NCBI RefSeq assembly: GCF_900104745.1
Contig: NZ_LT629732.1
Coordinates: 124,001-188,000, forward strand
Direction of reading: 5' to 3'
DNA from: Actinopolymorpha singaporensis
GTDB lineage: Bacteria > Actinomycetota > Actinomycetes > Propionibacteriales > Actinopolymorphaceae
Length of the DNA stretch: 64,000 bases
Every line of letters starts with the position of its first letter. Positions within the stretch are counted from its first letter, which is position 1. Below the pieces are notes generated by a model, which worked only from the letters and a program-made list of their open reading frames with translations, ran no database searches and had not been told where the DNA came from. The position numbers and the translations under genes are program-made. Below are positions 1,773-41,664 of this stretch, piece by piece.

Positions 1773-2207
1773 ATGACGTCGGTCAGGCAGGTCCAGGTCA
1801 CCTTCGACTGCGCGGAACCCGAGCGTGTCGCTCGCTTCTGGTGCGAGGTGCTGGGGTACGTCGTACCGCAGCCACCGGAGGGGTTTGCCAGCTGGGACGA
1901 CTTCGACCGCACGCTGCCGGCTGAGCATCAGGGTTCGGCGTTCGCGTGCGTCGATCCCTCGGGGGTGGGCCCTCGGCTGTTCTTCCAGCGCGTCCCCGAA
2001 GGCAAGGTCGTCAAGAACCGGCTGCATCTTGACGTACGGGCCGGCACCGGGCTCGTCGGTGCGGAGCGCCTGGCCGCGCTGGAGTCCGAATGCACCCGAC
2101 TGCTCGCGCTCGGCGCGGTGCGGGTGCGGCTCCTCCCCGCCGACGACCACAACGAGTCGTGCATCGTGATGCAGGACGTCGAGGGAAACGAGTTCTGTCT
2201 CGACTGA
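1773..2207 (+). CDS. VOC/glyoxalase-like domain protein
   Basis: A 144-aa single-domain protein. The start VQVTFDCAEPERVARFWCEVLGY and the end CIVMQDVEGNEFCLD frame a glyoxalase/bleomycin-resistance (VOC) fold, with the usual D..GNEF closing strand that carries a metal-binding Glu in family members. Members are metal-dependent enzymes or small-molecule binding proteins; the substrate cannot be read from the sequence. It starts 49 nt after the MFS gene on the same strand and may be cotranscribed. A strong hairpin follows at 2268-2301. Confidence 0.8.
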   Translation: MTSVRQVQVTFDCAEPERVARFWCEVLGYVVPQPPEGFASWDDFDRTLPAEHQGSAFACVDPSGVGPRLFFQRVPEGKVVKNRLHLDVRAGTGLVGAERLAALESECTRLLALGAVRVRLLPADDHNESCIVMQDVEGNEFCLD

Positions 2208-2267
2208 GGGCGCGGGGCAGTCGCCGGCAAGGGGGACCGATGAGGTCGTACCTTCCGACGAACGCGC

Positions 2268-2301
2268 GAAGGCCCTGCCGGGTGATCCCGACAGGGCCTT
2301 C
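2268..2301. terminator. Hairpin terminator between the glyoxalase-like gene and tRNA-Ala
   Basis: A perfect 10-bp stem (GAAGGCCCTG / CAGGGCCTTC) encloses a further CGGG-TGAT-CCCG hairpin. It lies between two convergent transcripts, so it can serve the plus-strand gene and the minus-strand tRNA. There is no U-tract, as is usual in actinobacteria. Confidence 0.75.
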
Positions 2302-2307
2302 GACCTG

Positions 2308-2384
2308 TGGTGGAGCTGAGGGGATTTGAACCCCTGACCCCCTCGATGCGAACGAGGTGCGCTACCGGACTGCGCTACAGCCCC
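2308..2384 (-). tRNA. tRNA-Ala(CGC)
   Basis: The minus strand folds into a full cloverleaf: acceptor GGGGCTG/CAGCTCC, anticodon stem CCTCG/CGAGG with loop TTCGCAT (anticodon CGC), T-arm AGGGG-TTCAAAT-CCCCT, and an encoded CCA. The third acceptor pair is G-U, the known alanine identity element. Positions 2308-2310 are the CCA end. Confidence 0.95.
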
Positions 2385-2509
2385 ATCCCGTGTCACGTCC
2401 CCGCGGTGTGCGGCGCGGGCGGCGAACGACCAAGACGATAGCACGCGCACTCACCCAGAACGCCACCGCGTCCGCTGCCCCGCCGGGGACGAACCGACCG
2501 GAATCCGGC

Positions 2510-3637
2510 TCAGTCGCCCACTGCTCGCCGGCCGGCGTCGCCGCTGTCCCGCTCACCCTGGCCGGTCCGCCGGTCCGCGTCGGAACGATCACCGGCGCCG
2601 GACTCGTCGAGCAGCATCTTCGGCGCGTCGTCCGGCCGGGTCAGCAGGCCGTCGGCAGGCGTTCCGGCGGCGGCCCAGATGCCCGACTGGGCGAGATCTA
2701 CCGTACGAACGGTCCGTGGCGCCTTGGCCTTGGTGACGTACGTCGGCAACGGCACCCGCACCGGGTCCCAGAGTTCGCCGGACGGCACCGCCGGTCCCAG
2801 CGACACCTGACTCGGCGCGACCGGGACGGGCGTCTCGACGGCCGGGCCAGGCGGCGCGGAGGGGACGGACGGTACGGACGGTGCATAGGCGGCCGCGGTC
2901 ATCGGGGGCGTCTCGACGGTGACGTCCCGGCCCCGATCCTGGTCGAAGGAAGGGCGGGCCTGCCGCTCGGCCTCCCGGTCGACCCGGCCTGCGGGTGTGC
3001 TCCACGTCGCGTCCCGTCCTGCGACCCGGCCTGGGTCGTATGTCCCGCCGGCGCCGGCCCGCGCGGCGCGAGCAGGCATCGCGTGCCGGGAGACGGTCCG
3101 CGGCGACGGCGCTTCGCGGCGGTCGTCGAACCCGCGACTGTCGGTCGTGCGCCGGGCAACGGGCTCTTCCGCCCACCGGCGCGCCCGCTCCCGTCGGGCA
3201 GCAGCGGCCGAGACCACCAGGAACCCGGCGGTCAGCCCGACCGACACCAGGACACTCCACCAGCCGACGACGCCGGCCATCGACAGGACGGCCGCCAGCG
3301 TGGTCAGGACGGTGAGCAGGAAGAGCGTGCGTCTGCGGCGGGCTGCCGCGGAAACACCCGGAGCGCTTCCCCGCCGGTGCGCATGCGCGTAAGCCGGTGA
3401 GAACTCCGGAGAGGTCGAGGAGGTGCGCTGCGGTGGCACCGCAACCTGCCCACCAGACTCGGCCGGACGGGCACTTTGACGGCGAGCCAGCACGCGCGAA
3501 GTCGACGGGACGTCCTCGGAAGGGACGTCGTCGACCGGCCGCGCGGCGGTCGCCTCGTCGTGCCGACGTAACCAGAGGGGGACGAGGTAGACGGCCCACG
3601 CAGCCACGATCGCTGCATAGATCAGGCCAGTACCCAC
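2510..3637 (-). CDS. sepX: SepX/GlpR-family divisome membrane protein
   Basis: A 375-aa protein. It begins with a membrane segment GTGLIYAAIVAAWAVYLVPL followed by WLRRHDE, the signature of the actinobacterial SepX family (formerly annotated GlpR), which acts with Z-ring components at the septum. A second hydrophobic pair lies around residues 110-145 (LFLLTVLTTLAAVLSMAGVVGW), followed by a long low-complexity cytoplasmic tail. GTG 3637 is chosen because the family starts right at GxGLIY; a TTG six codons upstream is possible. The neighbourhood (galU, moeA, moaC, RimJ) is the one this gene has in other actinobacteria. No clear SD, so it may be leaderless. Confidence 0.8.
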   Translation of the reverse strand: MGTGLIYAAIVAAWAVYLVPLWLRRHDEATAARPVDDVPSEDVPSTSRVLARRQSARPAESGGQVAVPPQRTSSTSPEFSPAYAHAHRRGSAPGVSAAARRRRTLFLLTVLTTLAAVLSMAGVVGWWSVLVSVGLTAGFLVVSAAAARRERARRWAEEPVARRTTDSRGFDDRREAPSPRTVSRHAMPARAARAGAGGTYDPGRVAGRDATWSTPAGRVDREAERQARPSFDQDRGRDVTVETPPMTAAAYAPSVPSVPSAPPGPAVETPVPVAPSQVSLGPAVPSGELWDPVRVPLPTYVTKAKAPRTVRTVDLAQSGIWAAAGTPADGLLTRPDDAPKMLLDESGAGDRSDADRRTGQGERDSGDAGRRAVGD

Positions 3638-3653
3638 GCGTACGAACGTACGC
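3638..3653. promoter_or_regulatory. Short inverted repeat touching the sepX start
   Basis: GCGTAC-GAAC-GTACGC is a perfect 6-bp inverted repeat with a 4-nt centre, ending one base before the chosen GTG. Its position would let a bound protein or an RNA hairpin affect initiation. Function is inferred only from place and symmetry. Confidence 0.3.
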
Positions 3654-3690
3654 AAAGAATCATGGAATCAGGCGCAAGTAACACGGTGTG

Positions 3691-3746
3691 TCGCCGGACT
3701 CGCCCGAGACTTGTCCCGGAGTCGTGCCGGACACGTCCCGGACTCG
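3691..3746. repeat. Three 12-nt repeats of the gtcccggactcg type
   Basis: Near-identical units start at 3691, 3713 and 3735, exactly 22 nt (about two helical turns) apart, in the spacer between the acetyltransferase and sepX. They could be an array of regulator sites or chance GC-rich repetition. No gene lies in this 149-nt spacer. Confidence 0.4.
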
Positions 3747-3786
3747 GCTCGGGTTGGTCCGACGTCGCGGCGTACCCCCTCCGGAC

Positions 3787-4488
3787 TCAGCCGGGCGGCG
3801 CGTTGCTGCCGTGTTGCTCGGAACTCCCCCGCTGCTCCGGCGGGGTGCTTCGCTGCGCACGGCGCCAGCGGTTCAGCAGACCCTCGGGCACCTCCTCGGC
3901 GTTCAGCGCGAACGCCAGATGGTCGCGCCAGTCGCCGTCGATGTGGAGGTAACGCGGACGCAAGCCCTCCTTGCGGAAGCCGAGCTTCTCCACCACCCGA
4001 AGGCTGGCGGCGTTCTCCGGGCGGATGTTGATCTCGATCCGGTGCAGACCGAGAACGAAGAAGCAGTGGTCGGCGGCCAGCGCCACCGCGGTCGGCATGA
4101 TGCCGCGCCCGGCGTAGGACTGGTCGATCCAGTAGCCGATCTGCGCCCAGCGGGCCGAGCCGAGTGTGATGCCGCTGACGGTCAACTGGCCGACGAGGCG
4201 TTCGACCTGCGTCCCCCGTCCGGGCGAGCCCGCCGGCACCGGCGGCTCGGTGTAGGTCACCACGAACGGCAGGCAGATGCCGGCGCGCGCCTGTGCCCGC
4301 AACATCCGCACCATCGACCGGAACGTGCGCGGACGCGGCTCGACGCCCGCCGGTGGCGTCGCCTCCCACGGCTGCAGCCAGCTGAGGTTGCGCGCGCGGA
4401 CGTCCCGCCAGGCCCGTGCGTCGCGGGTCCGCAGCGGGCGCAGCCCGACAGGTCCCTCGGAAAGCCGTACCGGCCAGGTCCTGGTCAG
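3787..4488 (-). CDS. RimJ/RimL-type GNAT N-acetyltransferase (apparent CTG start)
   Basis: A GNAT fold with the RimJ pattern: VRLSEGPVGLRPLRTRDA at the start, then IGYWIDQSYAGRGIMPTAV (acetyl-CoA pyrophosphate loop) and NAASLRVVEKLGFRKEG. Family members acetylate N-termini of ribosomal or other proteins. The conserved N-terminus lies upstream of the first ATG in frame (4314), and no ATG, GTG or TTG exists upstream to cover it. A CTG at 4488 has an ideal GGAGG six nt before it and overlaps the stop of mogA, giving 233 aa, the normal family length. An alternative is a short product from ATG 4314 (175 aa) lacking the first strand and helix, which is less likely. Confidence 0.85.
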   Translation of the reverse strand: MTRTWPVRLSEGPVGLRPLRTRDARAWRDVRARNLSWLQPWEATPPAGVEPRPRTFRSMVRMLRAQARAGICLPFVVTYTEPPVPAGSPGRGTQVERLVGQLTVSGITLGSARWAQIGYWIDQSYAGRGIMPTAVALAADHCFFVLGLHRIEINIRPENAASLRVVEKLGFRKEGLRPRYLHIDGDWRDHLAFALNAEEVPEGLLNRWRRAQRSTPPEQRGSSEQHGSNAPPG

Positions 4489-5000
4489 CGTGCACCTCCC
4501 GCGTGATCGCCCCGTACGTGATCTTTGGGTACGTGGTCGCCGCCGGCCACCTGGTCGACGGCATGGACGAGCACCGGTGCGAGCACCGCCAGGCCGTCCC
4601 GCGCCCCTCCGGTCGAGCCCGGCAGGTTGACCACGAGGGTTCTGCCCGCGAGCCCGGCAAGACCGCGGGACAGGCTCGCCGCGGGTACGCCGTGCCCGAG
4701 ACCATATGCCCGGATCGCCTCCGCCAAACCCGGAACCTCCCGGTCGAGCAGCGGCCGGGTGGCCTCCGGGGTCCGGTCGGTGGGGCTCAGGCCGGTGCCG
4801 CCGGTGGTGAGCACCACGTCGTACGCCGCGGCGACGGCCTCCCGCAGTGCCTGCCCGACGGGCTCGCCGTCGGGCACCACCCGTGGTCCGTCCACCTCGA
4901 ATCCGAGGCCCGCCAGCCCCTCGACCAGCACCGGACCGGCCCGGTCGGCGTAGACGCCCGCGGCCGCACGGTTGGACACCGTGACCACCAGCGCTCTCAC
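4485..5000 (-). CDS. mog: MogA/MoaB-family molybdopterin adenylyltransferase
   Basis: A 171-aa protein starting at GTG, overlapping the moaC stop as GTGA. It carries the MoCF-domain motifs TTGGTGLSPTDRTPEAT and NLPGSTGGARDG. This family activates molybdopterin by adenylylation before molybdenum insertion. It is translationally coupled to moaC upstream and to the acetyltransferase downstream, whose putative CTG overlaps its TGA. Whether it is MogA or the paralogous MoaB cannot be told from sequence alone. Confidence 0.9.
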   Translation of the reverse strand: MRALVVTVSNRAAAGVYADRAGPVLVEGLAGLGFEVDGPRVVPDGEPVGQALREAVAAAYDVVLTTGGTGLSPTDRTPEATRPLLDREVPGLAEAIRAYGLGHGVPAASLSRGLAGLAGRTLVVNLPGSTGGARDGLAVLAPVLVHAVDQVAGGDHVPKDHVRGDHAGGAR

Positions 5001-31678: not shown

Positions 31679-31754
31679 GCCCTCGTAGCTCAGGGGATAG
31701 AGCAACGGTTTCCTAAACCGTGTGTCGCAGGTTCGAATCCTGCCGGGGGCACCA
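31679..31754 (+). tRNA. tRNA-Arg(CCT), integration site of the 9.9-kb element
   Basis: Full cloverleaf: acceptor GCCCTCG/CGGGGGC, D-arm GCTC..GAGC, anticodon stem ACGGT/ACCGT with loop TTCCTAA (anticodon CCT), T-arm GCAGG-TTCGAAT-CCTGC, and an encoded CCA at 31752-31754. The 3' half from the anticodon loop onward is repeated at 41602, marking it as an attachment site; the tRNA itself stays intact. Confidence 0.95.
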
Positions 31755-31772
31755 GCAGAACCGCAGGTCAGC
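31710..31772. repeat. attL of the integrative element
   Basis: 63-nt attachment repeat matching 41602-41664 with three mismatches; the first 40 nt (anticodon loop to the end of the acceptor stem) are identical. It sits just downstream of the int stop codon as read on the minus strand. Confidence 0.9.
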
Positions 31773-31779
31773 GACATGA

Positions 31780-32896
31780 TCACCGGCCGACCTCCGCCCT
31801 CGTCGCCTCCGAACCGTCGTTCTGGCCACGTTCTGGCCACACCCCCGACTGGCCCGCGACCTCGTTGAGCCGCGCCGCCCAGGTGTCCATCTCGTCGGGG
31901 TACAGGTGGCCATACAGGTCCATCGTCATGACCACGGACGCGTGGCCGAGCACCCGCTGGACGACCTTCGGCGGCGTGCACGCGGAGATGTAGAGCGAGG
32001 CGGCCGTGTGCCGGAGGCCGTGGATGGTGAACCCATCGAGGCCGGCCGCCTTCACCGCCGGCGTCCACACCCGCTGCCGGAAGTTGCCGACCCGCAGTGG
32101 CCCACCTTCGGGGGCGGTGAACACCAGCGCGTCACGATCGCGGCCGGCGACCAGGGCGCCGAGCTCGTCGCGGAGTGCAGCAGGCAGCGGGACCGACCGC
32201 GACTGGTGAGTTTTGGGCTTCCCCTCCACCAGCTGGCCGTCGATGTCGACGTACGCACGCCGCACGTCCAGCCGCCCACGCGCCAGGTCGAGGTCACGAA
32301 CGCGGAGCGCGATCACCTCACCCCAGCGCAGCCCTGTGTAGGCAAGGGTGCGGACCAAGGTGCCGTATGGACCGGCCTCGTCCGAGCTTGGCCACCTCCT
32401 CGTGACTCAGGAACCGCCGTTCCCCCGACGACACCAGCTTCGGCAGCTTGATGCCGGCCACCGGGTTCGCGAGTAGCCGACCGGTCCGGATCGCGTGCTG
32501 GCACACCGAGGAGAACACGTATACCGTCTGCCGCACCTGCGACGCCGACAGCCCCGACGAGGCAAGGTCAGAGATCCATTCGGGCAGCATCCCGGCGACC
32601 TTGCCCATCGGGATCCGCTCCCACCGGGGCAACACTCGCAAGTCCAGCAGCCGCCGGTACGACGAGCGAGTCCGCGGCTTCAGGTGCAAGGTGCCGTCGA
32701 ACCACTCCCGCGCAACGGCGCCGAACTCCACCCGCAGCGCCGCCGGGTCCACCCACTCACCCCGCGAGAGCCGCACCTTCTGGTCGGCAAGCCACCGTTG
32801 CGCGTCGAGCTTGCGCCGGAAGCTCTTGTTGCGCTCCCGCCCATCCGGGCCGCGGTACCGGGCTCGCCACTTGTCGCCGCGCTTCTCCACGCTCAT
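31780..32896 (-). pseudogene. int: Tyrosine-recombinase integrase, frameshifted
   Basis: Two overlapping frames together encode one AICE integrase. The N-terminal part (MSVEKRGDKWRARYRGPDGR...LSHEEVAKL, from ATG 32896) contains the AP2-like arm-binding and SAM-like core-binding domains. The C-terminal part carries the whole catalytic set: Arg in TGLRWGEV, HGLRHTAASL, GHASVVMTMDLYGH. At about 32383 the reading changes frame: after AAG CTC a single G precedes the GAC GAG GCC expected next, so two bases are missing or one is extra. The full protein would be about 370 aa. The catalytic part could start at a TTG near 32358, but without arm binding it should not work. Confidence 0.85.
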
Positions 32897-33078
32897 GCGG
32901 CGGTCGCCTTCTGCTCCTCCACCCAGGCATATACGTCGGCCGGGTCGTAGCGCAGATGCTTCCCGATCCGCGCGGCCCGAGGACCGGTGCCGATGTAGCG
33001 CCACCGGTACAGCGTCTCGACCGGCACGCCCAGGTACTCACACACCTGGGCGGGCGTCCACAGTCGCTCGTGACTCAC
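32893..33078 (-). CDS. xis: Excisionase / MerR-like HTH (Xis)
   Basis: A 61-aa protein: SHERLWTPAQVCEYLGVPVETLYRWRYIGTGPRAARIGKHLRY. This is the HTH_17 excisionase fold (winged helix with the LYRWR recognition helix) found next to int in AICEs. GTG 33078 is preceded by AGGAG. Its TGA overlaps the int ATG (ATGA), so the two are translationally coupled. It would steer the integrase towards excision. Confidence 0.88.
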   Translation of the reverse strand: MSHERLWTPAQVCEYLGVPVETLYRWRYIGTGPRAARIGKHLRYDPADVYAWVEEQKATAA

Positions 33079-33116
33079 GCTCCTGATCCCTTCCCTGCAA
33101 TGCAGTCCGATGTGCG

Positions 33117-34880
33117 TCAACCCGAAGTTGCGATCTCCAGCCGTCCGACTTGCCGCCGCTCGCGGGCCATGGCGGCTGCGGTGTTGGCGAGCATGGCGTC
33201 GCCGGTGGTGTGCCAGCCCGAACCGGCGAACACGAGTTCACCGACCGACTCCAGGACCTCGTTCTCCTCGAGGTGCTCGGCCGACTCGTGGTGGGCGCGG
33301 CGGTAGTCGACGCGGGCTTGGCGGAGTCGTTTGAAGGTGGTGGAGTAGCGGCGAGACTTGGAGAAGAAGTGCCCGCCGTAGCCGAGCATGTGTGCCCACC
33401 GCCGCAGCGCGTAGTACTTGCTGTCCCGCCACTCCTGAGCCGACTGGTCGCCTTTCTGGCTGAGCCGCCAGCACGCCTCGATGAGCCGTCCGGGGTGGGT
33501 GTCGTTGGCGTAGAAGTCGACCGTCTCGTCGGTGATCTTGCGGGAGGTGTGCCCGGCAGCCTCGGTCGCCTTCGTGGCGTACTTCGCCAGATACCCCGCC
33601 ACCGCGGGGCCGGACAGCAACCGCCGCCGTCCATGCTTGTCGAGCTGGCCGGTGCCGCCGGTGGCGTCACTGTGGTCGAGCTCGTCGACGACCCGTTCGC
33701 CGGACAACTTGTCCTCACCGCGAAGCCGTACCGGTCGGACGTCCACCTGCGATCCCCACCGCAGGAGCCACCCGTCGGGTCGGTCGACGAGGGTACGGCC
33801 GTCGTGGTCGTGGACCACGTGCGGCGGGGTGCGGTACGCCGTTGCGGCGAGGGCCTGTTCGAGAATCCAGGACAGCAAGAACACGTTCGCCCAGTCAGGC
33901 GGCGGAACTACCAGGTCCGTGTCCAGAGGGTGGATACCGTCGAAGCGAGCGAGGACGTGGAAGTGGACCAGGCCGCGGCGCTGGAACTCCGCGACCTTCC
34001 CGAACGAGATCCGCACCGGCACCTTCGACGAGACCTTGCCCGTCTCGGGGTCCTCGACCCGTTCGGCGTAGCCGTGGCGGCGGGCCCACTTCCGCAGCTC
34101 GCGGTTGGCTTTCATGGTGGTGTAGCGCCACAGTTCGCCGGCGAAGGTGTTCCACACCGCGTGGTGGTCGTAGTCGTAGCAGTCCGGGCACAGGGGCCGG
34201 CCGAGCCGCTCGTCCCCCTCGGCGTGGCTGGTCATGCACCGCATGTCGACGCCGTGCGGGCACAGGTCCGGGGCACGACGAGCCCGGCAGGGTTCGGGCT
34301 TTCCACTCTTCTTGTTGGTGCGGGTGGTGTGCACCACCCCGAAGCCGGGCGCGGTGGCGGTGGCGAACACCGCCGGATGCCCCGACACGGTCTCGGGGAC
34401 GCCTTTGCCGCCGCGCATCCCGGCGAGCACCAGCTGGTAGGCATCGGCGCGGTAGATCTCCGAACACGACGGACACACCGACGCCCGGCGATTGCCGCAG
34501 GCCTTGTAGATCACCCCGTCGGGCATGTCCTCGGTCACCGTCTTGGTCTCGGTGACCTCACCCGTTCTGGTGTTGACGTTGGTGGTGCGGACCATGCCCG
34601 CCAACCGCACAGGCTGAGAACAACCCGCCGCCGAATGCACGTGCGAGAGCCAGCGCCGGTAATCGGGCGAAGCACCGCGGACCATCGCGGTCGTCGACGC
34701 GGAGAACCTGTCCGCGCCCCGCAGGTCCGTGAGGTCCAGTCCGTCGGGCTTGGGTCGGGGCGGGGTGTGCAACCAGACCGCGCCGTTGGCGTCGACGGTC
34801 CGGATCGTCTCGGCCACGGCCACCGCCCCCGCCACCGTGGGTGTGGTGTCGGGGGTGATGGTCGCCGTCGAGTCGGTCAC
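33117..34880 (-). CDS. repSA: Replication initiator RepSA family (rolling circle)
   Basis: A 587-aa protein. Cys-rich region CGNRRASVCPSCSEIYRADAYQL at residues ~125-150, a second Cys cluster (LCPHGVDMRCMT, LCPDCYDYDHHAVWN), the HUH-like motif RRGLVHFHVLARFDGI, and the catalytic-Tyr-type segment VAGYLAKYATKATE. These are the features of pSAM2 RepSA-type rolling-circle initiators. GTG 34880 overlaps the stop of the zinc-ribbon gene (GTGA) and follows GGCGAGG. It appears intact, unlike int. A matching double-strand origin was not pinpointed. Confidence 0.9.
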   Translation of the reverse strand: MTDSTATITPDTTPTVAGAVAVAETIRTVDANGAVWLHTPPRPKPDGLDLTDLRGADRFSASTTAMVRGASPDYRRWLSHVHSAAGCSQPVRLAGMVRTTNVNTRTGEVTETKTVTEDMPDGVIYKACGNRRASVCPSCSEIYRADAYQLVLAGMRGGKGVPETVSGHPAVFATATAPGFGVVHTTRTNKKSGKPEPCRARRAPDLCPHGVDMRCMTSHAEGDERLGRPLCPDCYDYDHHAVWNTFAGELWRYTTMKANRELRKWARRHGYAERVEDPETGKVSSKVPVRISFGKVAEFQRRGLVHFHVLARFDGIHPLDTDLVVPPPDWANVFLLSWILEQALAATAYRTPPHVVHDHDGRTLVDRPDGWLLRWGSQVDVRPVRLRGEDKLSGERVVDELDHSDATGGTGQLDKHGRRRLLSGPAVAGYLAKYATKATEAAGHTSRKITDETVDFYANDTHPGRLIEACWRLSQKGDQSAQEWRDSKYYALRRWAHMLGYGGHFFSKSRRYSTTFKRLRQARVDYRRAHHESAEHLEENEVLESVGELVFAGSGWHTTGDAMLANTAAAMARERRQVGRLEIATSG

Positions 34881-35113
34881 CCTCGCCGTCCAGCGTTGTT
34901 CCGCCGGTCGGCGAGGTGGGTGATTTTGCGGTCTTCGGGTCGGGTGCCCTCGCGTGCCGCGCAGGCCGGGCACAGTGCGTTGTGACCGTCGACGGCCCAG
35001 CCGAAGTCCGCCAGATCCTCCGGCTCACACGGCATCTCGTTGTGGTTGGTCTCGAACTCGGCGTCGCAGGAGTCACAGGCGGCGCCCCACCACTGGTACG
35101 AACGCACGGCCAT
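34877..35113 (-). CDS. Small zinc-ribbon protein upstream of repSA
   Basis: A 78-aa protein: MAVRSYQWWGAACDSCDAEFETNHNE...WAVDGHNALCPACAAREG. Two CxxC pairs (CDSC, CPAC) about 40 residues apart suggest a zinc ribbon. ATG 35113 has GAAGGAAG upstream; the TGA overlaps the repSA start. Such small genes are common in AICE replication modules; a role in replication control is possible but not shown. Confidence 0.75.
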   Translation of the reverse strand: MAVRSYQWWGAACDSCDAEFETNHNEMPCEPEDLADFGWAVDGHNALCPACAAREGTRPEDRKITHLADRRNNAGRRG

Positions 35114-35237
35114 GGCTGGGCTTCCTTCTTCGTCTGATGAGCGTGGCAGATGTCGCTGCAGGTTCCTCGCCATGGACTGCAGGCGGAACCGCAGGACACC
35201 GAGGTCCGTTGCCTGGAATCAAATGGAAGGAGGCACC

Positions 35238-35306
35238 ATGCCTCACCACACGCCACCGTGTGGCCACATGTACGCGCCCGATTCGAAGAAGCTCAAGCCG
35301 ATCTGA
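35238..35306 (+). CDS. Possible 22-aa peptide gene
   Basis: MPHHTPPCGHMYAPDSKKLKPI has an excellent ribosome site (GGAAGGAGG, 5 nt before ATG) in the gap between divergent repSA and regulator genes. It may be a real micro-protein or leader peptide; the gene is too short to judge by coding statistics. Confidence 0.3.
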   Translation: MPHHTPPCGHMYAPDSKKLKPI

Positions 35307-35432
35307 CGGCGAGCCGTGCGCAAACTAGGTTGCCCATGAAGAGGGCTGGTCGTCCGCCCTGCGGACAGTTCGACCATGGTGGGACGGATGAGTCCCGTTG
35401 TCAAGAAGAACACGTCCCTGGAAGATGTAGGC

Positions 35433-35712
35433 ATGGAAATGTCGAAGGTGCTCCGAGGCCGACGCCGTGAGCTGGGGTTGTCACAGGCGCAGCTGGCCCA
35501 GGCAGCCGGCGTGCACATGCGACAGATCCGAAGATACGAAGCAGGCGACCAACAACCGTTGTTCCCGTCGCAGTAGCCATCGCAAAGGCACTGGACATCT
35601 CACTCGCCGAGCTCGCCGGCATGCCCACTCATCCCATCCCTCCACCGGAGACCGGTGGGCGTCCTTGCAGACGTCGAAGAACCACGAGCACCTCGACCTC
35701 GAAGCCGACTAA
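35433..35712 (+). pseudogene. XRE/HTH_3 regulator with two frameshifts
   Basis: Three successive frames spell one regulator: MEMSKVLRGRRRELGLSQAQ and AAGVHMRQIRRYEAGDQQP (frame 1), VAVAIAKALDISLAELAGMP (frame 2, from about 35567), then GDRWASLQTSKNHEHLDLEA (frame 3, from about 35650). The HTH is intact but the protein from frame 1 stops at 35576. Intact relatives as I know them continue with 'WWA.WQT' plus a beta-rich effector domain, of which only the first part is traceable. It was probably the element's repressor. Confidence 0.65.
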
Positions 35713-36253
35713 TGTCGAGGCCGGCGCAACACACTGAAGAGCTCGGGATTATCCGCTACGACCAACCTGGCTTGGGGCACATGGAGGGGCACGCCGCGCT
35801 CAGTCCATGCGTTCGAACCAGGACGAGGACAGGTTCGTGGGAGGGCCAGGCGATTCAGGCTGTCTCGGTCCGGACGCTTCCACTTCCACTCGTCTGTCTC
35901 GCGGTGCCTGGATGGCGTCGCCAAGGTCACAAGGTGACGTACCGGCCGTACCAGTGAGCCGAGCTACGCATTACGAGTGGGTTCTCGTGCGCCGGGCCTC
36001 GCAGCGCGTGTCTGACGCCGAGCATGGTTCGAGGCGGCGAGACTTGATCATTAACGGCTGCTGTGGGCCGGTCGGGGGCACGTCAGGGGCACAGCTCCGC
36101 CTGGACGACGGTCAGCTTGGGAATCTGAGGCGGGTCGCGCTCGACCGGCGTTCTGCCGCTCGCGAGCGTGCTCCGTGGGTGCCCGGGATTGACCCCTCAG
36201 AGCCCGTGACGGATAGCACGCGGATAGCACGCAGATGGCACGCCGGCCGGGGA
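35713..36253. other. 541-bp stretch without a supportable gene
   Basis: This follows the broken regulator and may contain its decayed 3' part. Near 36205-36235 the short motif GGATAGCACGC/AGATGGCACGC recurs. No ORF has both a start signal and a protein-like sequence. Confidence 0.4.
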
Positions 36254-36589
36254 CTAGCAACGTGCATCGAAGCCAAGGAGGTTGTCCTCACCGCTACGCC
36301 AAATCATGGCGGTATAGGTCAGGCCGTCGGCGTCCGGCTGAGGGCCAGGCGGCGCCTCACTTGAACGGAAGTGCTCACGGATTGACGCCCAGAAGAGCTC
36401 GCTCCGTTCTGCAGGGATCCACACCATGGGCCGTCCGAAGCCGTGCACCACGATGCGCCGGCCTTCGCGCAAGAGTCGCTCGACATCCTGCACACTCGCC
36501 CAGCCGGCGCCGGAACGAATCCAGACCCTGCCCTCGTCATCCCACAGTCGGTCACCGTGCACCCGGTTCCGGGATACATGCTTGGCCAC
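36254..36589 (-). CDS. Unknown small protein
   Basis: A 111-aa protein beginning (from GTG) AKHVSRNRVHGDRLWDDEGR, with VWIRSGAGWASVQDVERLLREGRRIVVHGFGRPMVWIP in the middle. The composition is protein-like and compact with no TM. I do not recognise a family. The start signal is weak. It sits as possible cargo inside the AICE. Confidence 0.5.
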   Translation of the reverse strand: MAKHVSRNRVHGDRLWDDEGRVWIRSGAGWASVQDVERLLREGRRIVVHGFGRPMVWIPAERSELFWASIREHFRSSEAPPGPQPDADGLTYTAMIWRSGEDNLLGFDARC

Positions 36590-36694
36590 CGGGCAATGAT
36601 GCCTTGCATGACCTCAGCGGCCTGGAGTGACCTACAGGATCCGGTCCTGGCCCGCCGTAACGGCACGTGGATGGCACGGCCCGATCCATGGCCG

Positions 36695-36845
36695 ACGCGC
36701 GGGTTAGGAACCCATCCTCGCTCGTCCAGACCTGTTCGCTGGCAGCTCGTTTACGCGGCCAGGACGGCTCGGGCGCCATTGACAGTCCGAGATCATCCGG
36801 GATGGTCTTGCTCGTAGTTGCACGGGGGTTGCACGGGTGGAGGGT
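36695..36845. repeat. Dispersed direct repeat, copy A
   Basis: About 150 bp, starting at a GGTTAGGAACCCATCC block and ending with a doubled TTGCACG motif, is imperfectly repeated at 38130-38285 in the same orientation. Conserved islands alternate with diverged sequence, and no protein is evident, so it may be a regulatory or replication-linked module. Confidence 0.6.
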
Positions 36846-36892
36846 GCTGTAGATCGCTGCTGTACTCGTGCTGGCGGGGGTAGCCTGCGCCC

Positions 36893-37156
36893 GTGGCCAC
36901 CGAGGAGTCTGCGCCGGCGTGGTCGGCCGACAGGATAGGACGACAGCTGCGCGCGTTCGCGGACGAGCTTGAAGGCGAGCTGGGCCCCCCTGCACGGTGC
37001 GACGCCAGTGGGAGAGCTTCGACGAGGGGGCCGGCCCCATCTTGGGCCGGGACAGGTCGGCTCTGGTCGTTGCCGTTGCTGTACTTCGCTCCTGTACGCG
37101 GCTCCTGCGCGATGGGCCTTAACCCGCTCGCCTTCGAGTGGGCTCACGTCGGATGA
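36893..37156 (+). CDS. Doubtful small ORF
   Basis: From GTG 36893 it reads MATEESAPAWSADRIGRQLRAFADELEGELGPP, which looks like a helical N-terminus, but the rest runs through the 46-bp repeat (37049-37094) and is not protein-like. It may be the 5' remnant of a gene truncated by repeat insertion. Confidence 0.25.
   Translation: MATEESAPAWSADRIGRQLRAFADELEGELGPPARCDASGRASTRGPAPSWAGTGRLWSLPLLYFAPVRGSCAMGLNPLAFEWAHVG
37049..37094. repeat. 46-bp dispersed repeat, copy A
   Basis: A segment containing TCTGGTCGTTGCCGTTGCTG and TACTTCGCTCCTGT is repeated with few changes at 38851-38896. Each copy follows one of the 150-bp repeats by a few hundred bases and precedes a cargo gene, suggesting duplication of a larger block followed by divergence. 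Confidence 0.6.
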
Positions 37157-37163
37157 TGGCGAC

Positions 37164-37448
37164 GTGGACAAGACGGAGGCCCGGCGGCTGGCGGTGGACC
37201 GGATCGCTGAGCTACGTCAGATGTCGTACGCAGAGCTTCGTGATCGCTTCCTCGACCAGCCACAGTGCGACGAAGTACGCGCCGTATCCGGCACCGTCTA
37301 CCAGGTAGAGACCGAGGGGTTCTGGGACGATCAGGAGGCGGTTCACCTGAGGATCTTGGTCTACGTGGATGACGGTGGCTGGGCAGCGTTCTCTCCTGTC
37401 GGAGATAGCTTCATCGTCGCGCCAGACGGCTCCTTCGTGGGTGAGTAG
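37164..37448 (+). CDS. Unknown small acidic protein
   Basis: A 94-aa protein: DKTEARRLAVDRIAELRQMSYAELRDRFLDQP, then VYQVETEGFWDD and VYVDDGGWAAFSPVGDSFIVAPDGSFVGE. A helix followed by a beta-sheet ending in a D-G hairpin gives a compact alpha+beta domain. The pattern looks like a recurrent small prokaryotic protein, but I cannot name a function; an immunity-like role is only a guess. GTG 37164. Confidence 0.65.
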   Translation: MDKTEARRLAVDRIAELRQMSYAELRDRFLDQPQCDEVRAVSGTVYQVETEGFWDDQEAVHLRILVYVDDGGWAAFSPVGDSFIVAPDGSFVGE

Positions 37449-37587
37449 CCCCTCCAAGAGATCCGACTGACCTCATTATCCGTAGAGACAGGCAGCTTGA
37501 TCGCGAACTGCTGCTTTGCGCTCCGATGCTCGTCGACCAGGTGCTCATCGTCGCCCGATGTGGCAGGTCGTCGGGGTCACGCTGGGG

Positions 37588-38061
37588 TCAGAATGAACAT
37601 CCATCAAGGCGCCTTCTCGGCGGCTGGGGGATTATGGCGTTGGGATCCGCGCCGCGGGTGAGGAGCCGTTCACGGACTTCGCTGTGTTCCCTCGGTGTCA
37701 GCGCCATCCACAGCCCAGTTCCTGTGTCGCTCGCGCTGTAGATCTGCTCGTCGGACTCAGCCCAGCCTTCCGCACTGATTGTGAACGGTGACAGGGCCAC
37801 TACCAGGTCGAACTGATCGTCATCGCTAACATCCAACTCGATGCCGGTGTCGCTGGTGTGATGAAGTTCGGCGAGGTCGAGCAGAGCGCGGAGGGCGACT
37901 TGCGCCTGCTCAGGCCACGGACTGTCGGAGATGGCGTCTATCCAGACGCGCCGAAGCGCTCCGCGCACGACACGCAGGCCTTCCTGGTGAGCGGCGATCG
38001 CGGTGGCCTCATCGGCGTCGTCGGCAAGGGCGAAAGCGGACCGACCGGCTGACATTGCCAC
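37588..38061 (-). CDS. Unknown 157-aa protein
   Basis: It starts MAMSAGRSAFALADDADEAT, has a helix-rich N-terminal half (EEGL-type helix AIAAHQEGLRVVRGALRRVW), and an acidic central part (GIELDVSDDDQFDLVVALSPF). A GGAGG lies 4 nt before GTG 38061 and 10 nt before an internal ATG at 38055, so either may be used. No recognised domain. Convergent with the gene at 37164. Confidence 0.6.
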   Translation of the reverse strand: MAMSAGRSAFALADDADEATAIAAHQEGLRVVRGALRRVWIDAISDSPWPEQAQVALRALLDLAELHHTSDTGIELDVSDDDQFDLVVALSPFTISAEGWAESDEQIYSASDTGTGLWMALTPREHSEVRERLLTRGADPNAIIPQPPRRRLDGCSF

Positions 38062-38129
38062 GGCGCCTCCTTGAGCAGGGCCTTGGACTCGATTCTGGCG
38101 GACCTCGGCTAATGGCCCGTGAATGGCCC

Positions 38130-38285
38130 GGCGAGGGGCGGGTTAGGAACCCATCCCCACTCGTCCGTAGCGGTCCGCCGGTCGTTCGTTCACGCCTGCA
38201 GGAAGGCTCGTACGCCCGGTGATGGTCCAAGATCATCCATGGCTGTCCCGCCGACTGTTGCACGCAGGTTGCACGCCTGGGTGGC
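38130..38285. repeat. Dispersed direct repeat, copy B
   Basis: Second copy of the ~150-bp repeat at 36695, with the same GGTTAGGAACCCATCC block and the paired TTGCACG motif (GTTGCACGCAGGTTGCACGC). Confidence 0.6.
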
Positions 38286-38367
38286 GCAGGTCGTTGGCGC
38301 CAGGCTGGTTCAGGTTGAGGAGGCCGAATCGGTGCCCGTGGTCGTGCGGAACTGCCATGATCGCGTC

Positions 38368-38763
38368 ATGTCTTCCAACGCTTGGGCAAGCCGCTCGTTC
38401 GTCGTCCGCCTCCCGATCGGTATCGCCGCGATTGTCGGCGCGTTATTGGTCGGTGGGCTGGTTGGCGTGAAGCTGCCTGTCGGAGCGAAGCCTGTCACAG
38501 TCAGTCGGGGGACAGCCTTCTTCCGCAACACCGACAACTTGGGCACCTTCCAAGCCAACAGGGGCGGCGTCAGCGCGCTAATCCCGGGAGAGGTCGAGTG
38601 GACGGACAGGAGCAGCCGCCGCGAGAGCGGTTCGGTGCCGAGTTGCCTTCGACGACGCGGCGAGGAGGCTGTGGCGCAGGCGTCAGTGGAGGCCGGCTAC
38701 ACATGGCTTCGGCTGCCGGACGGCGGATCTTCCCTGATCGTCGGATGGATCCGCTGCCTGTGA
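38368..38763 (+). CDS. Small membrane-anchored or exported unknown protein
   Basis: A 131-aa protein with one N-terminal TM (VVRLPIGIAAIVGALLVGGLVGV) and an extracytoplasmic part. The C-terminal segment VPSCLRRRG...YTWLRLPDGGSSLIVGWIRCL has a Cys pair that could form a disulphide. The overall form is that of small actinobacterial cell-surface hypotheticals. No function suggested. Confidence 0.6.
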   Translation: MSSNAWASRSFVVRLPIGIAAIVGALLVGGLVGVKLPVGAKPVTVSRGTAFFRNTDNLGTFQANRGGVSALIPGEVEWTDRSSRRESGSVPSCLRRRGEEAVAQASVEAGYTWLRLPDGGSSLIVGWIRCL

Positions 38764-38850
38764 TGCGGGTACGGCTGGTCCCTTCGTCCCGAACTATCGG
38801 CGGCAAGGTTGATGGCGGTCGTACGGGCGCGAGTCACGCCATTGCACGTC

Positions 38851-38896
38851 GGGATAAGTCGGTTCTGGTCGTTGTCGTTGCTGTACTCCGCTGCTG
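38851..38896. repeat. 46-bp dispersed repeat, copy B
   Basis: Matches 37049-37094 (GTCGTTGTCGTTGCTGTACT core) in the same orientation. Confidence 0.6.
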
Positions 38897-38921
38897 TGCG
38901 ACCCCGCCCAGAAGCGGCGAC

Positions 38922-39801
38922 CTATCGAGGCGCAGACGTGGTTGTGGCTGCGGCGATCCATCGCGCGAGTACGTTGGCCGCCGCACCGGAGTTGACGGCC
39001 TCGGCGCAGTGGGCGAGCGCCTCTGTCAGATCCTGCGACAAACATTCTTCCGTGGGATTCATCGCCACAATGGCGGCTGCGGCGTTGAGAAGCACGATGT
39101 CGCGGACTGGGCCGCGCTCACCGTCGAGGACTCTCCGGACGGTGGTCGCGTTCTCTCTAGCGTTCCCGCCGCGCAGGTCGGATTGCGTGGCCTGAGGTAT
39201 GCCGAGGTCCCTTGGGTCAAGCTGCACTCGGCGGCCTACCTGGCCGTCTCGAACGACCCAGATCTGTGAGGTCGTCGTCGTGGTCAGCTTGTCCATCCCG
39301 TCGTCACCGCGAACGACCAGGGCCGTACCTCCTCGCCGCGCCAGGACGCCCGCGACAACTCTGGTCATCTTCGACGGCGCAACACCGACGAGCTGGTGCG
39401 GAGGCCGCGCAGGGTTGATCAGAGGGGCCAGCACGTTGAACGCCGTCGGCACACCCAGTTCGCGTCGTGTCGGGCTCGCGTGGCGCAGACCCGGATGGAA
39501 TTTGGGCGCGAAGCAGAACGTGATGCCCACCTCTTCGGCCATTTGAGCTACCCGCTCGACCGGAAGATCGAGGTTGAGGCCTAGGCACTCTAGGACATCC
39601 ATGGGCCAGACCCGCGATTTCCTCCGCTGTCTCCCCTTTCGCCCGCAAGGCCACGAGGAAGGCAGCAAGACGAGCAGGCGAGGCGTCGTTACGGATGACC
39701 TGGGCCATCACCCAGGAGGTATCCGCCATGCTCAGATCAGAGCCGGCCAGGAGAGCGCTTAGTAGAGCAGGCCACAAGCGAGTCGACGACATCTGCCGCA
39801 T
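38922..39801 (-). pseudogene. trpD: Anthranilate phosphoribosyltransferase with internal deletion
   Basis: The N-terminal part (from ATG 39801: MRQMSSTRLWPALLSALLAG...AAFLVALRAKGETAEEIAGLA) and the C-terminal part (DVLECLGLNLDLPVERVAQMAEEVGITFCFAPKFHPGLRHA...GPVRDIVLLNAAAAIV) both match TrpD. They lie in different frames and meet near 39602. About 60 residues normally between them are missing, including the GTGGD glycine-rich loop and the KHGNRAASS motif that bind PRPP and metal. The enzyme cannot work. It is an element-borne copy, perhaps once part of a secondary-metabolism anthranilate pathway. Confidence 0.88.
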
Positions 39802-39964
39802 GGTGCCAGCCGACTCCTGCCTGTCGCCACCGGCCGCCATCCAGCGGACGGGATGAAGGAGCGGCAGGGTTTGCTCGGTGTCCTGCATCGGGTCGCGGAG
39901 ACCGGGGGGCCGTAAGCTTCCGCGGCTCGGGCGGGTTCCTGGCCTGCCCGTTGTGCCCCGAGCC

Positions 39965-40131
39965 GGTCCCCCGGTCTTAGGGTCCTCGATCCGAGGGAGG
40001 TGGGTAAAGCCTGCCGGTTCGGCGACTACCTCAGCCACGCTCCCACACCGTCGTGTCGCCCGGTGAGCCCGAGGACGGCGCGCCAGCGCCGCCCGCAGGG
40101 CGGCCGGGCGACTGCGCCGCGTCAGCGGCGC
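39965..40131. repeat. Hairpin-rich module, copy 1 (inverted relative to 40815-41045)
   Basis: It contains GAGGTGGGTAAAGCCT (around 39990), whose inverted copy lies near 40990, with similar sequence on both sides (CGGGTCC... and CAGCCACGC). Towards the gene it has two perfect hairpins: GCCGCCC-GCA-GGGCGGC (40088-40104) and GCGCCGC-GTCA-GCGGCGC (40114-40131). Confidence 0.65.
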
Positions 40132-40183
40132 CTTGACACATCAGAGCCCAGCTCGGCAATGAATGCCCTAGCGTGTTGGCCAG

Positions 40184-40732
40184 CTAATCTCTGCGTTCGT
40201 GTGGCCCCCACCACGGGAGGATCGGCGGCAGCTCGGCGAGGAGCTGCGCTGGCTGCTTCGGTGCCGGCAGGTCGCCATCGTCGCCGTCCCACCGGCGCCC
40301 GTACTGATCAGGCAAGTCACCCCAGCCGAAGTACGGGACCGGTTCGGTGGGCACCACACCCAATTGGTCCAGGGGATCGATGCGGCCGGTGGTGACGGTG
40401 CACAGGTGCGCCCAGTTGTCGCCGAGGTCGAACACGTACGCGAACTGTTCACCCGGGCTGAGGCGGCTCAACTTGGTCCTGTGGCTGTCGAGGCTGCCAT
40501 CCGGCGCCTCGCCGTCCCACCGATCCAAAGCGGTGATCTCGGTCCTGTCGGCGAGGGTGAACACGTCCAGGTGGGCCAGGTCCCACCGGGCGAACGCCAG
40601 GTTAATCGCATCGGCGAGCTGGCCGAAGGAATGCGATCTCGCGGCCGCGAAAATGCGGCCAGGGCGGGGCCACAGGTCCGTGCCCCTCCCACCGACCAGC
40701 TCTACCCGGACCGACAACCACGTACGAGCCAC
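40184..40732 (-). CDS. Plasmid pRiA4b ORF-3-like protein
   Basis: A 182-aa protein: RVELVGGRGTDLWPRPGRIFAAARSHSFGQLADAINLAFARWDLAHLDVFTLAD, later EQFAYVFDLGDNWAHLCTV. The conserved 'F..LGD.W.H' strand and the N-terminal half match the PRiA4_ORF3 family, found on plasmids and in transposon cargo; function unknown. GTG 40732 has GGAGG nine nt upstream. It is bracketed by two inverted hairpin modules, so gene and modules may have moved as a unit. Confidence 0.85.
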   Translation of the reverse strand: MARTWLSVRVELVGGRGTDLWPRPGRIFAAARSHSFGQLADAINLAFARWDLAHLDVFTLADRTEITALDRWDGEAPDGSLDSHRTKLSRLSPGEQFAYVFDLGDNWAHLCTVTTGRIDPLDQLGVVPTEPVPYFGWGDLPDQYGRRWDGDDGDLPAPKQPAQLLAELPPILPWWGPHERRD

Positions 40733-40814
40733 AATCAACTACCTCCACGCCCAACGACGACGACCGAAAAGTCTATTGAACGACTCCGGTGATGAGTTTC
40801 CCTACGTCTTTAAA

Positions 40815-41045
40815 GGCGGCCTCACGGCCGCCGCGCGCCCGCCTGAACGGCGCCGGCCCTCCCTCCGCGCCTTCGGCGCCGGTCGGCCGGCGCGGCTGGG
40901 CGCGACAAGAGGGCCGCCAGAACACTGGCGACCCTCATCAACGTCCCGCTACGCGGGACCAGAACCGTGCGTGGCTGGTGGCGGGCCGGAGGCTTTACCC
41001 ACCTCGCTTGGCCCGGGACCCGAAGGCCGGCGGCCCACGGCGGGC
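40815..41045. repeat. Hairpin-rich module, copy 2 (candidate single-strand origin or transfer site)
   Basis: Four perfect hairpins within 145 bp: GGCGGCC-TCAC-GGCCGCC (40815-40832), GCGCC-TTC-GGCGC (40867-40879), CGCCAG-AACA-CTGGCG (40915-40930), and GTCCCGC-TAC-GCGGGAC (40943-40959). Then comes AGGCTTTACCCACCTCG, the inverted match to copy 1. No gene is plausible here. Such clusters act as single-strand origins or oriT in rolling-circle elements. Confidence 0.55.
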
Positions 41046-41197
41046 GGTCAAGGGCGGGCAGCCAAGCTGCCCACCGCGCCCGGGCAGGCTACGGGCCGCC
41101 GACCTCCCGGACCAAGCCAGGCCACCGGGTAAACCCTCCGCCCCTCGGAGCTTCCTGAAGCGCTGCAGGTGGTCTCGTGGGCCGGGAGGATGGCGAC

Positions 41198-41482
41198 GTG
41201 GGCACGAGTGACGCCGGCGACGAGTGGGACGAGCGCCACAAGCAGCGCGTCCGCTGGATGACCTACGCTCGCCCATCACCAGGCGGATGGAGACCGCCAG
41301 CAGGAGTCCGACCCGGATGGAACTGGACCCCACCCGATGGCGTCGAACCGCACCTCGAGCGAGTACCGCGATGGGCACGAATCTGGTTCTGGACACCATG
41401 GCTCGACCGGTACGCCTACGAGTGGCTCTGGCACCGCGGCGGCTTCGACGTCCTCCCTCCCGACGCTCCAGGGCAGGCTTGA
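41198..41482 (+). CDS. Small Trp-rich unknown protein
   Basis: A 94-aa protein with many Trp and Pro residues: WMTYARPSPGGWRPPAGVRPGWNWTPPDG, then RWARIWFWTPWLDRYAYEWLWHRGGFDVLPP. GTG 41198 has GGGAGG eight nt before it. The aromatic C-terminal segment may associate with membranes. I do not recognise a family. It is the last gene before the right attachment site. Confidence 0.55.
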   Translation: MGTSDAGDEWDERHKQRVRWMTYARPSPGGWRPPAGVRPGWNWTPPDGVEPHLERVPRWARIWFWTPWLDRYAYEWLWHRGGFDVLPPDAPGQA

Positions 41483-41484
41483 AA

Positions 41485-41503
41485 GTGGCCGCATTTTGGC
41501 CAC
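41485..41503. terminator. Small hairpin after the Trp-rich gene
   Basis: GTGGCC-GCATTTT-GGCCAC begins 3 nt after the stop codon. The stem is only 6 bp, so it is a weak terminator candidate. Confidence 0.35.
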
Positions 41504-41552
41504 ACGGCATCCCCAGGAGACGCCAAACGATCACCAATGGCGTCAAGAGAAG

Positions 41553-41567
41553 CCGCAGGTCAGCCGC
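41553..41567. repeat. 15-nt direct repeat inside the right end
   Basis: CCGCAGGTCAGCCGC here recurs exactly 100 bp downstream (41653-41667, beyond the attR core), and its first 12 nt recur beside attL (31761-31772). It could be an integrase arm-type site or a scar from an earlier insertion at the same tRNA. Confidence 0.5.
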
Positions 41568-41601
41568 CATTTTGAGCCTAAACGAGAACGCCCGGACCAG
41601 C

Positions 41602-41664
41602 TTCCTAAACCGTGTGTCGCAGGTTCGAATCCTGCCGGGGGTACCGACAGAACCGCAGGTCAGC
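41602..41664. repeat. attR of the integrative element
   Basis: Second copy of the tRNA-Arg 3' half; identical to attL over 40 nt and similar over 63. The 5' half of the tRNA is absent here, so this is not a second tRNA gene. From about 41668 to 41862 I see no gene. Confidence 0.9.

Follow-up and report, generated by a model that had tools for sequence, protein, structure and literature searches.

Two probable copies of a RepSA-type rolling-circle origin region in an AICE-derived element of Actinopolymorpha singaporensis

Two related modules in inverted orientation flank a pRiA4b ORF-3-like gene in the window analyzed here, a stretch of 64,000 nucleotides from Actinopolymorpha singaporensis (contig NZ_LT629732.1, positions 124,001 to 188,000). 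We suggest, with a probability of about three in four, that these modules, A and B, both represent the rolling-circle origin region of a RepSA-type actinomycete integrative and conjugative element (AICE), as related copies in which the 5' part would be a single-strand origin (sso) and the 3' part a double-strand origin (dso), and that the gene between them is cargo. The origin assignment draws on the homology of the modules, a covarying strand-specific fold, a setting that is bounded by att repeats and contains repSA, a fixed strand and order relative to RepSA genes, a nick-like motif, and a cargo breakpoint. The nicking, the priming, and the division of roles between the two halves are what we infer from these observations, and we are less sure of the sso label than of the origin assignment. 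Module A is most likely the combined sso-like/dso origin of the element itself, and module B most likely a diverged, inverted second copy. The modules most likely represent a mostly known kind of thing, previously undescribed here, and not a new kind of transposon.

An earlier note, made from the sequence alone, had described two homologous, inverted, hairpin-forming modules, and this description holds. The 15-bp core AGGTGGGTAAAGCCT has two exact matches in the window, at 39998-40012 (plus strand) and 40990-41004 (minus strand), and lies within a 22-nt arm pair with 91% complementarity. BLAST in the host genome aligns A with B over about 128 nt (70% identity, E 3.5e-5), and a covariance model built from copies of A, with B excluded, matches B at 39857-40030 (92.7 bits, E 4e-15). 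Since a model built without B still detects B, and the BLAST alignment agrees, the two modules are homologous and their likeness is no chance match. Folded as single-stranded DNA and compared with shuffled sequences, A has a z-score of -7.0 and B of -4.7. The extents given earlier were too small, however. Judged by the constant edges of copies in relatives, A spans approximately 40786-41151 on the minus strand and B approximately 39856-40140 on the plus strand. Module A, represented by full copies in the host genome and in relatives, shares its strand with repSA and lies upstream of this gene. Module B, recognized by the A-only model and present in full in genomes G002-G004, is oriented opposite to both A and repSA, and differs from A in length and in the 3' part.

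The host genome contains four additional full-length copies of A, with 88-91% identity and constant edges, and many partial copies; these copy counts come from searches that scored a limited number of candidates per genome. The family of module A was found in Actinopolymorpha, Streptomyces, and other Actinomycetes. In a BLAST search of a plasmid database, A as a query yielded nothing useful, and B retrieved a 27.8-kb plasmid of S. formicae. In this plasmid, a 10.4-kb AICE with int, an excisionase-like gene, rep, SpdD, FtsK, and NUDIX genes is repeated in tandem.

The whole module-gene-module unit lies inside a 9.9-kb integrated element (31709-41641), in agreement with the earlier proposal that the modules belong to mobile DNA; this element, with its att repeats, integrase, and RepSA, is the mobile unit. 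It is delimited by a perfect 40-bp direct repeat on the plus strand. One copy (31709-31748), at the integrase end, coincides with the 3' part of the tRNA-Arg(CCT) gene that is the integration target (31679-31754, plus strand; ARAGORN, Rfam), and the other (41602-41641) forms the outer end beside A. The tyrosine integrase gene (31780-33004, minus strand; PF00589, E 3.7e-20) is frameshifted, its pieces 31780-32358 and 32318-33004 being in different frames, while its homologue in the related element L183 is in one frame. It is followed by repSA, encoding a pSAM2-type rolling-circle replication initiator (33117-34973, minus strand; PF20199, 481 bits), and by the broken gene of an XRE-type regulator (35376-35690, plus strand; PF01381), recovered in three tblastn pieces. 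Two FtsK queries gave no tblastn match to an FtsK/TraB translocase gene in the window. About 450 bp separate the module-gene-module unit from the att end that lies away from the integrase.

The element thus has the att repeats of an AICE, with one copy in tRNA-Arg, and a RepSA-type initiator. Frameshifts in the integrase gene and in a trpD-like gene, the broken XRE gene, and the failure to detect an FtsK gene indicate that it is decayed or Tra-less, and given the missing FtsK/TraB match we call it AICE-derived or decayed and not a complete AICE. Matching geometry was observed in three other elements of the host genome or its relatives, with att repeats of 44, 38, and 35 bp. The integrative element L183 (G002, 9386000-9396000), inserted in tRNA-Arg, is compact at 6.3 kb and carries module A together with XRE, RepSA, and integrase genes, and tblastn found no FtsK in it; it is possibly a minimal or mobilisable relative of AICEs. 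The pSAM2-family AICEs, which depend on RepSA (PMC3218068), resemble the window element in the att repeats at a tRNA 3' end, the tyrosine integrase, RepSA, accessory cargo, and decay, whereas the window element has no detected FtsK/TraB, a broken integrase and regulator, and two origin-like modules instead of one.

The first 170 nt of the family form, according to alignment and folding, one long irregular hairpin. It was recognized initially in 11 copies, and a later alignment of 20 sequences, among them B, S. violaceusniger, and the S. formicae plasmid, shows it as well. Compensatory changes occur in 22 of 50 pairs (65 cells) of the 20-sequence alignment; none of 500 shuffles reaches any of five covariation measures, and slid controls collapse to 3-8 compensatory pairs. 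The stems contain many G-U pairs. In module A this imperfect, sso-like hairpin of about 170 nt with covarying stems occupies 40972-41145 on the minus strand (169 bits with model R1). Covariance-model scores are 88-181 bits on the forward strand versus at most 38 bits on the opposite one. Strand-specific secondary structure on the displaced strand, by which an sso is recognized, is thus evident from both the covariation and the strand asymmetry. The sso (sti) of Streptomyces rolling-circle plasmids such as pIJ101 is likewise a long imperfect hairpin, strand-specific and non-coding, though the module has no detectable similarity to it, and the hairpin model gave no match to pIJ101, whose sso is experimentally known.

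In a class-wide sample the hairpin was found in 23 of 296 genomes, mostly from one genus with Streptomyces-like genome size; this count includes the host genome, and the search for RepSA genes covered the 22 others. Of 40 elements, 13 have no RepSA gene within 25 kb. The other 27, counted in genomes outside the genus Actinopolymorpha, do, and every one of them is on the same strand as RepSA and upstream of it (binomial p 1.5e-8). Location on the strand of the rep gene, as expected of a dso, therefore holds in 27 of 27 class-wide cases and for A in the window, but not for B. All four RepSA genes of the host genome have A, and A also precedes, on the same strand, 11 RepSA genes or gene fragments of Actinopolymorpha and its sister genus, the one exception (G001:C14) being a partial A opposite in strand to the nearest RepSA. 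The element accompanies 25 of 37 high-scoring RepSA genes and none of the six mid-scoring ones (Fisher p 0.003). The 12 high-scoring genes without a model match indicate that the 5' hairpin is not universal. The six mid-scoring proteins perhaps belong to the RepSA-MR2 subfamily (PMC3218068), an assumption on our part.

A non-coding module tied to AICE-type elements could also be the clt site of conjugal transfer (TraB). The S. formicae AICE fits such a role, as its homologous element of matching architecture lies in the gap beside the NUDIX gene, distant from rep. We consider this explanation unlikely: the clt sites known so far are short loci of direct or inverted repeats (PMC3583192), unlike a strand-specific single-strand fold with a nick-like motif at its end, and both L183 and the window element keep the module though no FtsK gene was detected in either.

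It is similarly improbable that the 5' module is an ncRNA gene, involved for example in copy control or acting as the partner of a neighboring reverse transcriptase. Its fold is covarying, strand-specific, and rich in G-U pairs, a UG22 reverse transcriptase has one copy immediately on its 5' side, and ncRNAs can take part in DRT systems. However, this is one copy of many; the others adjoin NACHT, TPR, MmeI, ApeA, or methyltransferase genes or nothing at all, in either orientation, and no Rfam family matches. Furthermore, a strand rule that refers to rep and is independent of the adjacent gene fits DNA replication better. Several narrower candidates were rejected: a known Rfam RNA (the module has no covariance-model match in Rfam 15), a companion ncRNA of the UG22 reverse transcriptase (adjoined by a single copy), TnpB/omega-RNA (the genome has no PF07282 gene), and a 5'-UTR regulator of the downstream gene (neighbors vary and occur in both orientations).

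The 3' half of the presumed origin consists of GC hairpins followed by CTTGA(N)GTARRGAAA. The strict pattern CTTGA..GTARRGAA is present in 23 of 33 sequences, with 0 expected. CTTG^A is the pC194-type cut in rolling-circle plasmids, and by this resemblance the motif is a putative rolling-circle nick site. In A it is located at 40796-40815 on the minus strand and reads CTTTAAAGACGTAGGGAAAC, a degenerate form of CTTGAAGACGTAGGGAAAC (alignment and motif scan), with CTTTA instead of CTTGA. In B, a candidate nick motif CTTGA follows the GC hairpins (40132-40136, plus strand), but the GTARRGAAA part downstream is not recognizable. Thus a conserved nick motif beside hairpins, as in a dso, characterizes the family, while window A retains a degenerate version and B the CTTGA only. 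Common to the module and the dso of the pC194 family is CTTGA beside GC hairpins, on the same strand as the initiator gene; the module differs in its 3' flank (GTARRGAAA) and in lying usually kilobases from rep, and its nicking is predicted. According to te Poele et al. (as cited in PMC3218068), the nick site places pSAM2 close to pC194.

Among six RepSA elements in which no hairpin was matched, five have the motif, located 4.9-9.0 kb upstream and restricted to the rep strand; it was not found in any of three elements with a lower-scoring RepSA. Since these five keep the motif, it appears to be conserved more constantly, and the hairpin to be the half that can be replaced, which by analogy is the pattern that a dso nick region and an sso would be expected to show. 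In L204 and L219, CTTGA is the exact point at which origin sequence passes into integrase or rep coding sequence; such junctions would be expected if DNA ends arise there, though microhomology alone could also produce them. A dso directly upstream of repSA was considered as well and rejected, as that region looks coding and lacks a shared CTTG site.

We propose the following course of replication. The GC hairpins together with CTTGA-N-GTARRGAAA are probably the nick region of the double-strand origin, where RepSA would nick CTTG^A, and extension of the 3' end would start leading-strand synthesis. The long 5' hairpin, probably the single-strand origin, would form on the rep-coding strand, that is, the displaced one, and would prime the complementary strand; with its position just before the nick, it would be exposed late. 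The origin assignment is opposed by the CTTTA of window A, by the strand of B, opposite to repSA, and by the hairpin model missing pIJ101. Also counting against it are the 13 class-wide elements with no RepSA nearby, the strand of the partial A in G001:C14, and the 12 high-scoring RepSA genes lacking a model match. Judging from its CTTTA, window A may be dead as an origin.

The gene enclosed by the modules (40184-40738, minus strand) encodes a protein of 184 amino acids, and its earlier identification as pRiA4b ORF-3-like is confirmed by a match to PF07929 (PRiA4_ORF3) above the cut-off of 26.6 (32.7 bits, E 7.8e-8). It is most likely one of several AICE cargo genes placed against the origin. 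A further cargo gene, the frameshifted trpD-like gene (38922-40038, minus strand; PF00591 and PF02885 in two frames), overlaps module B at its listed 5' end (40038). At its break near 39601, about 184 bp are missing compared to a relative (G005:C112). The orthologous element L183, which occupies a tRNA site of the same kind, can be aligned to the window up to 40786, the 3' edge of A, and again from window position 35690; its 1.5-kb intervening stretch, GNAT-like by eye, corresponds to 5.1 kb of the window that contain the pRiA4b ORF-3-like gene, module B, and what remains of trpD. As homology ends exactly at the 3' end of A, a cargo breakpoint is located at the edge of the presumed origin.

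Elsewhere in Actinopolymorpha, the 3' neighbors of A include a UG22 reverse transcriptase with a HEPN partner, NACHT and TPR genes, and an MmeI-type enzyme. In Streptomyces-like genomes, ApeA, type II methyltransferase, and AriA/OLD or Schlafen-like genes are 5' neighbors, and the 3' side of the module adjoins AICE core genes. Cargo abutting the origin often consists of predicted anti-phage genes; resistance- and restriction-type cargo in AICEs has already been described (PMC9513070). In L177 (G000:C1:3374000-3392000), a UG22-class reverse transcriptase and its HEPN partner (approximately 2180-4520) lie between module A and the GntR/FtsK/RepSA core, and this pair is an AICE-borne DRT candidate.

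That the module pair and the gene form an independent non-autonomous transposon (a MITE or passenger unit) moved in trans is very improbable. Homologous inverted ends around a gene and many dispersed copies, full and partial, with sharp edges are compatible with it, and the earlier note had indeed proposed a small mobile unit of this composition. This proposal is contradicted by singly standing copies: A is mostly alone beside unrelated genes, and at AICE-borne loci both modules are found as single copies, adjoined by a variety of genes or by none. The pair was not found as a fixed unit around other genes among the loci examined; B is close to A in just three AICE loci, with different genes or none between them. 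Moreover, the outer edges of the pair show no convincing target-site duplication, just 5-bp chance matches, and the DNA of the pRiA4b ORF-3-like gene was not found in six relatives. Finally, A and B are unequal in length and 3' part, and A obeys the strand and order of RepSA. The 3' part of B facing A is located at 4692-4800 in L186, 6044-6132 in L083, and 40057-40163 in the window; in one of these three elements it is only tens of bases from A, and no gene intervenes.

With the modules as origin regions, a sequence-defined and testable candidate origin becomes available for a class of mobile elements that is very common in actinobacteria. The covariance model and the nick motif track one RepSA subgroup, and would help in finding and delimiting AICEs and their decayed remnants and in designing mini-replicons. 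The abrupt change to cargo at the origin, next to which defence genes lie, points to a specific, testable route for gaining and losing immunity genes. Among published ideas, the nearest to an exchange of cargo linked to the origin concerns the 'DSO-gene-SSO' mobile genes qacC and lnuA of staphylococcal plasmids, a proposed route of gene spread (PMC5037232). Common to both is an exchangeable gene against rolling-circle origins with no transposase, whereas here the origin halves are adjacent, the cargo is diverse, and its movement by that route is only proposed. As a DNA-level analogue of that model, we tentatively envisage, as a rather doubtful possibility, that the origin serves as a loading dock, where cutting and joining by RepSA at CTTG^A would swap neighboring genes, many of them anti-phage, without a transposase; the gene in the window would then have been trapped between two opposed origins.

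Two further observations concern the DNA around the 3' end of A. IS481-like terminal sequences occur 20-40 bp past this end in four loci (G001:C12, G005:C56, G002:1667k, and G003:1360k), as if an insertion sequence prefers a site beyond A. At three loci of G002:C1 (near 3173k, 3272k, and 5025k), A and its upstream flanks are near-identical, and the sequences diverge from the 3' end of A onward; by this pattern they appear to be a recent duplication with different cargo.
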